The notes under the pieces: generated by a model | What the model was told of the DNA's origin: nothing | Databases searched by the model: none | What the model saw: the letters and a program-made list of their open reading frames with translations, nothing else | Source of the DNA: Thalassobaculum sp. OXR-137 | GTDB lineage: Bacteria; Pseudomonadota; Alphaproteobacteria; Thalassobaculales; Thalassobaculaceae | Length of the DNA: 64,000 nt | Assembly: GCF_034377285.1 (NCBI RefSeq) | Contig: NZ_CP139715.1 | Coordinates: 2,836,001-2,900,000 of the forward strand | Direction: 5' to 3' | Translations under genes and position numbers: made by a program | Shown here: piece by piece, positions 36,494 through 39,036 of the stretch | How the letters are laid out: each line of letters begins with the position of its first letter | Numbering within the stretch: the stretch's first letter is position 1

Positions 36494-37240
36494 TCATCGG
36501 CAGACACCCCAATCCCCCATGTCGAGATGGAAGTGGTCGCGATGGGCGGCGTTGTAGTCGGGGCTGAGCACGACCTGGAACAGGCCGCAGGCGGCGTCCC
36601 GGATATCGCGCAGGAAGGCCCGTTCGGCGGTCGTGCCCTGGCTCCAGTCCCCCAGCACCGTGATCCGCCGCCCGTCCTCGAGCCGGAAACCTCCGATGTC
36701 GATGGCGTTCGCGGTGGCATGTTCGCTGGGACGGTTGCTGGAACCGCCTCGCCTGCGCCGGCAGGAATAGGTCCCCATATGGTCGATCCGCACCAGACGG
36801 CTGCCGAGGTATTTCACCGCCGCGGGGCCGACGATCTCGCGCTCCCACAGGTAGAGGGTGGCCGCCATCGGGCAGGTCAGATGCACGGGGCCGGAATAGG
36901 GGACTGTCGAGCGCAGGATCTGCACCACGTCGGAATAGCCGCAATACGCGCCGTTGCGGCGGTCCGGCAGGGTGCGCACCTGAAGCCGGGAGGCGGTCAG
37001 GGTGGCCAGACACTGGGTGGGATCGCGTTTGAGGGCGAGCAGCTGGCGCCCGGTGGCCGGGCCGACGGGCCGCTCCAGGTCCAGCGCTCCGACGGCGGCT
37101 TGCGGGCTCGGTGACGGGAGCCGCTCCACGGTCCCGCAGCCGGCGAGGACCAGCAGGACGAGCGCCAGGGCCGGGACCGCGGCGCGTGCCAGCGCTCCTG
37201 AGACTGCCGCGGATATGCCCGGTTCCGTCGGGTCGTCGAT
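36494..37240 (-). CDS. Extensin-like domain lipoprotein, paralogue 1
   Basis: A protein of up to 248 residues with an extensin-like C-terminal domain (PF06904 type): TCPMAATLYLWEREIVGPAA, YSCRRRR, SEHATANAIDIGGFRLEDGR and HRDHFHLDMGDWGVCR. The histidines and Asp recall M15-type peptidases, so a periplasmic cell-wall role is likely. The only strong in-frame standard start is GTG at 37129, which would leave out an obvious lipoprotein signal peptide (ALVLLVLAGC). The frame is open upstream to ATC at 37240, preceded by AAGGGAG at 7 bases. From there the length (249 codons) equals that of paralogue 2. The start is therefore uncertain. Confidence 0.75.
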   Translation of the reverse strand: MDDPTEPGISAAVSGALARAAVPALALVLLVLAGCGTVERLPSPSPQAAVGALDLERPVGPATGRQLLALKRDPTQCLATLTASRLQVRTLPDRRNGAYCGYSDVVQILRSTVPYSGPVHLTCPMAATLYLWEREIVGPAAVKYLGSRLVRIDHMGTYSCRRRRGGSSNRPSEHATANAIDIGGFRLEDGRRITVLGDWSQGTTAERAFLRDIRDAACGLFQVVLSPDYNAAHRDHFHLDMGDWGVCR

Positions 37241-37381
37241 GGTCCTGCTCCCTTCGGGCGATGGATTTTTCGAAAGAGGGTCCGCGCGCCAGCGTTCGGT
37301 CTGCAGTCTAGATAAGAATGCCGATGCCGGGGCGTCGGGTCTGGACGCCGCGCCGAAAGCCGCCCGCGGCTCCAGCCCCGG

Positions 37382-38128
37382 TCAGCGGCAGACCCCGAAT
37401 CGGCCCATGTCGAAATGGAAGTGATCCCGGTGCGCCGCGTTGTACTCCGGTCCCAGCACCACCCGGAACAGGTCGCAGGCGCCGTCGCGCACGTCGCGCA
37501 GAAAGGCCTTCTCCGCCGCGCTGCCGCCGGACCAGTCGGCGAGCACCGTCACCCGCCGTCCGTCCTCGAGCCGGAATCCGGCGATGTCGATAGCATTGGC
37601 GGTGGCGTGCTCGCTCGGCCTGCCGGTGGGGCCGCCGCCGATGCGCCGGCAGGAATAGGTGCCCAGATGATCGAGCCGCACCACCGGGCTGCCCAGGTGT
37701 TTCTCCGCCGCCGGAGCGACGACCTCGCGTTCCCAGAGATACAGGCCGGCGGCCATCGGGCAGGTCAGCCGCACCGGGCCGGAATAGGGCACGGTCGATT
37801 GCAGGATCTGCACGGCATTGCTGAAACCGCAGAACTCGCCTGTCTTGCGCTCCGGGATCGCCCGGACTTCCAGGGCCGAGGCGTTGAGGATCGCCAGGCA
37901 CTGGTCGGGGTCGCTCTTCAGGTCGGCGAGCTGCATCCCCGTCGCCAGGCCGATCGGGCGTTCCAGGTCGAGGGGTTTGAACGGCAGGTGCTCGCCGGGC
38001 AGCGGAAAGCGCTGGAGGATGCCGTAGAGCGCCGCCGCCAGCAGAGCAAGGCCGAGCAGCGGCAGCGCCGCTCCGGCTACGAACCCGCCGAACCGGCCGG
38101 GCCTGGATGTGTCCTTCCGATCGGCGAT
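37382..38128 (-). CDS. Extensin-like domain protein, paralogue 2
   Basis: The second extensin-like protein, similar to the first throughout (TCPMAAGLYLWEREVVAPAA, SEHATANAIDIAGFRLEDGR, HRDHFHFDMGRFGVCR). Instead of a lipobox it has a membrane anchor (PLLGLALLAAALYGIL). The only standard start in the open frame is ATG at 37936, which would drop the anchor and the conserved LDLERPIGLATG block. The frame is open upstream to ATC at 38128, preceded by GGGAGG at 9 bases, giving 249 codons, the same as paralogue 1. The two genes are separated by 141 bases and are tandem duplicates. Likely periplasmic, membrane-tethered. Confidence 0.72.
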   Translation of the reverse strand: MADRKDTSRPGRFGGFVAGAALPLLGLALLAAALYGILQRFPLPGEHLPFKPLDLERPIGLATGMQLADLKSDPDQCLAILNASALEVRAIPERKTGEFCGFSNAVQILQSTVPYSGPVRLTCPMAAGLYLWEREVVAPAAEKHLGSPVVRLDHLGTYSCRRIGGGPTGRPSEHATANAIDIAGFRLEDGRRVTVLADWSGGSAAEKAFLRDVRDGACDLFRVVLGPEYNAAHRDHFHFDMGRFGVCR

Positions 38129-38301
38129 CGCCCAGATCCTCCCGCGCGCGTTGCTCGATACAGTTACGGAGGCAACGCGGCGGAGCCGTGACCGGTTCTG
38201 GATGACTTGGGGCAGGCGGCGCCTTGCAGCATCGACGGACTGGCTCCGGCGCCTCGGATCTGTAAGGTGAGGCGCATGACAGATACAGCGGTAAGCCTTC
38301 G

Positions 38302-39036
38302 ATGAAACGGCGCCTCGATCAGCTTCTCGTGGACCGGGGCCTGGTGGAGTCCCGGACCCGCGCCCAGGCCCTGGTGATGGCCGGCAAGGTGTTCTCCGGC
38401 GAGCGCAAGATGGAGAAGGCCGGCCAGCAGGTGGCCGAGGATATCGCCCTGGAGGTGCGCGGCCAGGATCACCCCTGGGTCTCGCGCGGCGGCCTGAAGC
38501 TCGCCCATGCGCTGGAGCATTTCGCCATCGACCCGGCCGGCGCGGTCGCCATCGACGTGGGTGCGTCCACCGGCGGTTTCACCGACGTGCTGATCCAGGG
38601 CGGGGCGGCCAAGGTCTATGCGGTCGATGTCGGCCACGGCCAGCTCGCCTGGAGGCTGCGCAACGACGACCGGGTGATCGTGCTGGAGAAGACCAACGCG
38701 CGGCACCTCAGCGGCGAGCACGTGCCCGAGCCGGCGGATATGGTGGTCTGCGATGCCAGCTTCATCTCGCTGAAGACGGTGCTGCCGGCGGCGATCGCGA
38801 TGGTCAAGACAGGCGGACGGCTGGTGGCGCTGATCAAGCCGCAGTTCGAGGCCGGTCGCGGGCAGGTCGGCAAGGGGGGCGTGGTGCGCGACCCGGAGGT
38901 GCATGCGGCGGTCTGCGACGACATCCGGGCCTGGCTCGACGGGATCGGTGGATGGTCGATCGACGGCATCGTGCAGTCGCCGATCACCGGGCCGGAAGGC
39001 AATATCGAGTTCCTGATTTCCGCACGCCGTCTGTGA
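38302..39036 (+). CDS. tlyA: TlyA family rRNA 2'-O-methyltransferase
   Basis: A 244-residue protein with an N-terminal S4 RNA-binding domain (residues 1-60: RRLDQLLVDRGLVESRTRAQ) and a C-terminal FtsJ-like methyltransferase domain. The SAM site is AIDVGASTGGFTDVLIQGGA, and the conserved KPQFE motif (IKPQFEAG) is present. TlyA proteins methylate ribose 2'-OH groups of rRNA; some were first named hemolysins. The start has a weak Shine-Dalgarno (TAAG). It is divergent from extensin paralogue 2. Confidence 0.92.
   Translation: MKRRLDQLLVDRGLVESRTRAQALVMAGKVFSGERKMEKAGQQVAEDIALEVRGQDHPWVSRGGLKLAHALEHFAIDPAGAVAIDVGASTGGFTDVLIQGGAAKVYAVDVGHGQLAWRLRNDDRVIVLEKTNARHLSGEHVPEPADMVVCDASFISLKTVLPAAIAMVKTGGRLVALIKPQFEAGRGQVGKGGVVRDPEVHAAVCDDIRAWLDGIGGWSIDGIVQSPITGPEGNIEFLISARRL

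Follow-up and report, generated by a model that had tools for sequence, protein, structure and literature searches.

In the 64,000-nt stretch of DNA that we analysed (the window), two paralogous genes lie in tandem on the minus strand, copy 2 (38128-37382) followed by copy 1 (37240-36494). Each is an open reading frame that runs from an ATC codon to a TGA and encodes 248 amino acids, and each matches the Extensin-like_C domain (PF06904; E of 5e-60 and 3e-59 and scores of 203.1 and 200.6 bits against a gathering cut-off of 25.4). The two proteins share 69% identity over 213 residues, and the genome that carries the window (G000; 5.65 Mb, 3 contigs) contains no other match to PF06904 with E ≤ 0.001. 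Among named species, Thalassobaculum litoreum and T. fulvum are its closest relatives. Copy 1 is of the lipoprotein type, with the lipobox LVLAGC near the N terminus of its translation, and has orthologues in T. litoreum (G003) and in genome G004; copy 2 carries an N-terminal membrane anchor, which reads as a plain hydrophobic helix, and is 85% identical to its orthologue in T. litoreum. A divergent neighbouring gene at 38302-39036 on the plus strand, whose sequence reads as TlyA-like, is kept beside the homologues as well: one or both of two TlyA-type motifs occurred on the opposite strand next to the gene at all eight loci checked (G000, T. litoreum, T. fulvum, G004, G005, G029, G030, and the more distant G019).

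The ATC of copy 1 (37238-37240) is preceded at a distance of 7 nt by the Shine-Dalgarno (SD)-like sequence AAGGGAG (37248-37254), which is identical in copy 1 of T. litoreum, and the ATC of copy 2 (38126-38128) is preceded at 9 nt by GGGAGG (38138-38143). The first-pass annotation of the window had proposed initiation at both ATC codons, and on re-reading, the paralogy, coordinates, frames, ATC codons, and both upstream arrangements (AAGGGAG-7-ATC and GGGAGG-9-ATC) were all as it had described them, as was the lack of any ATG, GTG, or TTG that would preserve the export signal of either copy. Its count of 249 codons for each copy is right as to equal length but includes the stop codon, and its argument that such agreement is hard to obtain by chance is weak when taken alone, because the copies align without gaps over residues 36 to 248; yet six of the nine orthologous genes considered below also encode 248 amino acids from the homologous codon, and the other three encode 252 to 254.

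Protein searches found matches in four of six genomes of the genus and in 9 of 36 genomes of the family (the order-level search covered the same 36), with weak extra matches at G004:C31 and G020:C656 in the family search. Nine close genes from seven genomes of Thalassobaculum and a sister genus were compared, namely two each from G000 and T. litoreum and one each from T. fulvum (G028), G004, G005, G029, and G030. The homologous codon is ATC in seven of these genes (both copies in G000 and T. litoreum, and the genes of G004, G029, and G030) and ATA in the remaining two (G005 and T. fulvum), and it is never ATG, GTG, or TTG, a count to be read with the relatedness of the nine genes in mind, as they represent fewer than nine independent lineages. 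The comparison of orthologues that the first-pass annotation had called for thus upholds its reading, and the base error that it had named as a possible source of the ATC codons is very unlikely because seven genomes show ATC or ATA at the homologous place.

When the nine genes are aligned as DNA with MAFFT from positions -60 to +60, the only invariant columns are C(-2), A(+1), and T(+2), the C at -2 (37242 and 38130 in the window, and likewise in the orthologues) being the sole other invariant base besides the A and T of the ATH codon. The residues around this codon are poorly conserved among the N termini, and each of the nine genes encodes a hydrophobic segment. The appearance of ATA is only a mild point: it makes up 18 of 1,941 Ile codons in 131 genes of G000 as against 2 of 9 at the starts, but inside the nine genes themselves 5 of 77 Ile codons are ATA, a rate by which two of nine is unremarkable.

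In a tree of 19 rows, rooted at the midpoint, the nine genes tentatively cluster with more distant orthologues from G019 and G020 (support 88/88), and the three genes of the copy 1 type come together (99/98), with no resolved order among the remainder. The G019 and G020 proteins are 50 and 47% identical to copy 2, and the G019 gene also adjoins a TlyA-like gene. In both, the hydrophobic segment is preceded by ordinary ATG codons, and the ATH codon is accordingly not universal in the family. Among the fetched loci, G004 shows only a gene of the copy 1 type and G005 only one of the copy 2 type. Two further genomes of the same genus, G001 and G002 (1.5 Mb, about 99% complete), have no match to either copy and look like strongly reduced relatives.

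In seven of the nine genes, no ATG, GTG, or TTG occurs in the stretch that runs from 80 codons before the ATH, or from a stop where one lies closer, to the hydrophobic core. The two that do have canonical codons upstream could start canonically: T. fulvum has in-frame ATG, GTG, and ATG codons 4, 10, and 49 codons, respectively, before its ATH, and G004 has a GTG three codons upstream of its ATC that overlaps its AAGGAG SD sequence. These are the only upstream canonical codons among the orthologues, and we found no shared site of the kind that the first-pass annotation had named as evidence against ATC initiation, a clear ATG elsewhere. In eight of the nine genes, the frame stays open for between 37 and 165 codons ahead of the ATH. 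The exception is copy 1 of T. litoreum, whose frame meets a stop 11 codons before the ATC, leaving ten codons open. Its first canonical codon after that is a GTG within the hydrophobic core, 28 codons past the ATC, so that translation of the entire signal segment would require a noncanonical start. The lack of an upstream ATG, GTG, or TTG is weak evidence by itself, as by a rough estimate these make up about 4% of codons and 20 codons often pass without one; in this sequence comparison, it is the conservation over seven genomes that lifts the case above chance.

Pairing with the tail of 16S rRNA was assessed as the predicted duplex energy for positions -18 to -4. The values are -7.6 and -10.6 kcal/mol for copies 1 and 2 of G000, -7.6 and -10.8 for those of T. 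litoreum, -9.1 for G004, -9.9 for G005, -9.3 for T. fulvum, -5.7 for G029, and -11.1 for G030; eight of the nine genes reach -7.6 kcal/mol or stronger, and the site of G029 is weak. The median of -9.3 kcal/mol compares with -3.9 for internal ATH codons (n = 1,932, from 131 genes of G000; one-sided Mann-Whitney p = 9e-6), a comparison that was not fully blind, as some knowledge of the SD positions preceded the choice of codons. In 130 genes, the first shared ATG gives a median of -6.4 kcal/mol. The sites of copy 1 in G000 and T. litoreum are only moderate, in that 13% of internal ATH codons match their -7.6 kcal/mol.

The frequency of such arrangements was surveyed in 131 genes of G000 that have T. 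litoreum orthologues and were picked by codon-position GC. A crude filter for an ATH codon with an SD sequence was passed by five of the 131, copy 1 and four others that do not seem convincing, two of them sitting at codons 71 and 104 of open frames; with four other genes passing, a comparison of just two species could not decide the matter. In 2 of the 131 genes, over 60 codons of the mapped frame precede the first shared canonical start; copy 1, where it comes at 46, is not one of them. Copy 2 is missing from this set. As its composition passes the test, the removal of overlapping frames is the one step left at which it would have been lost. The lack of a canonical start is not rare in itself, and an ATH codon coincides with an SD sequence in both species in the four other genes too; our argument rests on conservation over the nine genes. 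Two other surveys were discarded. One set 320 kb of G000 against a 309-kb T. litoreum contig and flagged 79 of 178; it was dropped because the species are too alike upstream for a crude boundary model and because of shadow frames. The other used 400 kb of a T. fulvum contig, where little gene order is shared; only 69 genes were kept, and 45 of them lacked a canonical start in common, in most cases owing to a match that began elsewhere.

Among 80 PF06904 loci in other genomes, 77 have a clear hydrophobic core, and in 74 of these a canonical codon lies at most 30 codons before the core (ATG in 45), which speaks of presence and is not proof of use. The three loci that have none are L021 and L023, which belong to the clade of Thalassobaculum, and L093, where the core was apparently miscalled. 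Cores were located by a rough method, and the T. fulvum locus (L022) went unflagged owing to its ATG. We also sought an odd initiator tRNA in G000 and found none among the 43 typed of 44 tRNA matches; tRNA-Met(CAT) was found twice among these 43, a list that is incomplete, as tRNA-Ile is absent from it and was probably missed or left out near rRNA operons.

The features of the proteins suggest, as far as sequence goes, that both are exported, as a hydrophobic segment precedes a cysteine-rich domain in which C77, C100, C123, C160, C218, and C247 are invariant or nearly so. A lipobox ending in AGC is found in the three genes of the copy 1 type, and a plain hydrophobic segment is found in copy 2 and the single-copy genes. 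Zinc ligands of the LAS peptidases follow the pattern His-x6-Asp plus His-x-His. H174, D181, H236, and H238 are invariant in 33 sequences and provide H-x6-D and HxH ligands that match this pattern. An AlphaFold model of copy 1 built on the 33-sequence alignment has a mean pLDDT of 90, and the first nine Foldseek ranks in the PDB are chains of a zinc DD-peptidase and of Hedgehog proteins, with a best E of 0.034 and no match at E ≤ 0.001; no PDB match at E ≤ 1 was found by sequence. VIA-align placed Hedgehog (Z to 8.6), MepA (7.4), 1lbu (7.3), and proteins of the VanY/LdcB type at the top, a range that is middling for this tool. The candidate fold neighbors of the modeled copy 1 are the LAS peptidases (DD-peptidase 1lbu, MepA 1tzp, LdcB, and VanXY) and the Hedgehog N-domain, which have the ligands in common with it; a peptidase role of PF06904 proteins is a prediction. 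TagX, a further LAS peptidase (PMC5061870), is not among these neighbors. From the model, Extensin-like_C probably has a LAS-type (MepA/VanY/Hedgehog-like) fold in addition to the LAS ligands, and the best reading of copies 1 and 2 is that of predicted membrane-anchored, exported peptidoglycan peptidases.

Initiation at AUH codons is a textbook property of infC, which is autoregulated by its own product, IF3. We found infC in 34 of the 36 family genomes and fetched 30 loci (L101 to L130), of which all but L102 and L107 could be read; in these 28, the codon at the position expected for the start is ATC in 15 and ATA in 13, and it thus alternates between the two inside one bacterial family. A purine-rich SD sequence precedes it, with no ATG, GTG, or TTG upstream in the listed stretch of up to 19 codons, and in some loci (for example, L105, L114, L117, and L118) a canonical codon lies between the ATH and the conserved GPRVN motif. 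In G000, infC reads AGGAGGTAACCT-ATC-GCC. The extensin-like genes would therefore use the same start class as infC in the same cells, with the same alternation of AUC and AUA behind a strong SD sequence; the difference is that infC encodes its own regulator and the pair described here a predicted exported, wall-type peptidase.

The kind of phenomenon is already known from infC, pcnB, sigR, cvfC1, and ccpN. The E. coli gene pcnB, an otherwise different gene in a different organism, is said, in the title of a 2002 report by Binns and Masters that PMC13009471 cites, to be translationally limited by its AUU start, a limitation through an AUH codon like that envisaged here. Long SD sequences have been described for other rare starts, namely for Streptomyces sigR (PMC5472188) and for cvfC1 and ccpN of Staphylococcus (PMC13009471). 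According to the latter, cvfC1 (AUU) and ccpN (AUA) resemble our pair in having a conserved AUH start with an extended SD sequence but belong to another phylum and encode other proteins, and their starts were shown by retapamulin profiling and reporters, as opposed to sequence alone here; the same paper gives AUU and AUA reporters in S. aureus as yielding about 10% of AUG in poor medium, and ccpN up to 30% in rich medium, and states infC autoregulation as likely for this species (PMC13009471). The sigR gene, as described in its report, has a GTC start that is needed against overproduction and is repressed by IF3 (PMC5472188). Like our genes, it shows a rare start kept in one genus, a long RBS, and a canonical codon within the SD sequence (compare the GTG of G004), but the codon is GTC, the product is a sigma factor, and IF3 repression is proven for sigR (PMC5472188); for our pair it would hold by analogy. 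Among the matches listed from the open literature, no report on these particular genes was recognized by its title or the start of its abstract.

Taken together, these observations very probably mean that both genes start at AUC or AUA with fMet, that this start is kept weak and is probably sensitive to IF3, and that it limits a membrane-anchored LAS-type peptidase. The AUC/AUA start itself is well supported by the comparison of sequences, and the IF3 step and the enzyme activity are the parts that we infer, the former by analogy with infC. Both genes would initiate at the AUC codons at 37240 and 38128, read by ordinary fMet-tRNA despite the third-base mismatch that AUC and AUA entail; the strong SD sequence would position the ribosome and offset the poor codon in part, and IF3 would hold the yield low, as it does for infC. 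The state would have been kept, most simply, since before copies 1 and 2 split. The products would be exported, copy 1 as a lipoprotein and copy 2 tethered by its N-terminal helix, and the likely purpose of the weak start would be to limit a potentially harmful wall hydrolase. Judged by the alignment, the conserved rare start looks maintained and may act as a built-in brake, and a sequencing error does not seem to be its source. The first-pass annotation was thus right in what it observed and largely right about its meaning.

Other readings of the start region were weighed against initiation at the ATH codons. The genes might begin downstream, at the GTG at 37129 and the ATG at 37936, and have no signal sequence; these codons open the longest ATG/GTG/TTG frames, and an ordinary gene caller could pick them. 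The first-pass annotation had named both as the alternatives to consider. The ATG at 37936 is CTG in copy 2 of T. litoreum, and the GTG at 37129, although kept in copy 1 of that species, is missing from G004, where a GTG occurs five codons further on. With such starts, the cysteine-rich domain would lose its lipobox or membrane anchor, and the invariant ATH would go unexplained; the near-invariant cysteines and the ever-present hydrophobic segment suggest export. We consider these starts very improbable. Hardly less improbable is that each species uses another codon upstream (ATG in T. fulvum, GTG in G004, and CTG or others elsewhere) and that the ATH column is a conserved Ile or a coincidence. 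The long open frames and the two genes with upstream canonical codons would allow this, but no further start-like column common to the nine genes was seen, the short open stretch in copy 1 of T. litoreum leaves little room, and a lone conserved Ile would be odd amid poorly conserved N-terminal residues. It is exceedingly improbable that copy 1 is made by frameshifting or by read-through of the copy 2 TGA, with which it is in frame. Nothing but that TGA (37381-37384) separates the two frames in the window, and read-through would fuse both proteins; T. litoreum is unlike the window here, as the stop 11 codons before its copy 1 ATC blocks the fusion frame, and in G004 the copy 1 type gene directly adjoins the TlyA-like gene, with copy 2 absent from the fetched locus.

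A milder alternative accepts the AUC/AUA start and sees in it neutral drift or tolerance, without IF3-dependent control. Expression needs may be merely low, and we regard this reading as possible but rather unlikely, as none of the nine genes has gone to ATG though the third base has switched between C and A, and infC of the same family uses the same start class. Switches to AUU, moreover, are given as very rare in PMC5622118, at 1 in 61,358 AUG starts and 1 in 5,080 GUG starts.

If initiation at AUC/AUA under IF3 control is correct, limiting IF3 might lead to greater translation of infC and of both hydrolases, and the pair offers a simple test of whether IF3 acts beyond infC. More tentatively, a duplicated peptidase gene that keeps its AUH start might tie wall remodeling in Thalassobaculum to IF3 and the state of translation. 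Apart from infC, the bacterial genes known to retain an AUH start are few, and a paralogue pair whose close relatives have only AUC or AUA at that place would be a clean natural case of selection for a weak start. Our findings also suggest that annotation limited to ATG, GTG, and TTG would clip the export signals from such proteins. The start itself is well conserved within its clade and has been doubled by gene duplication.
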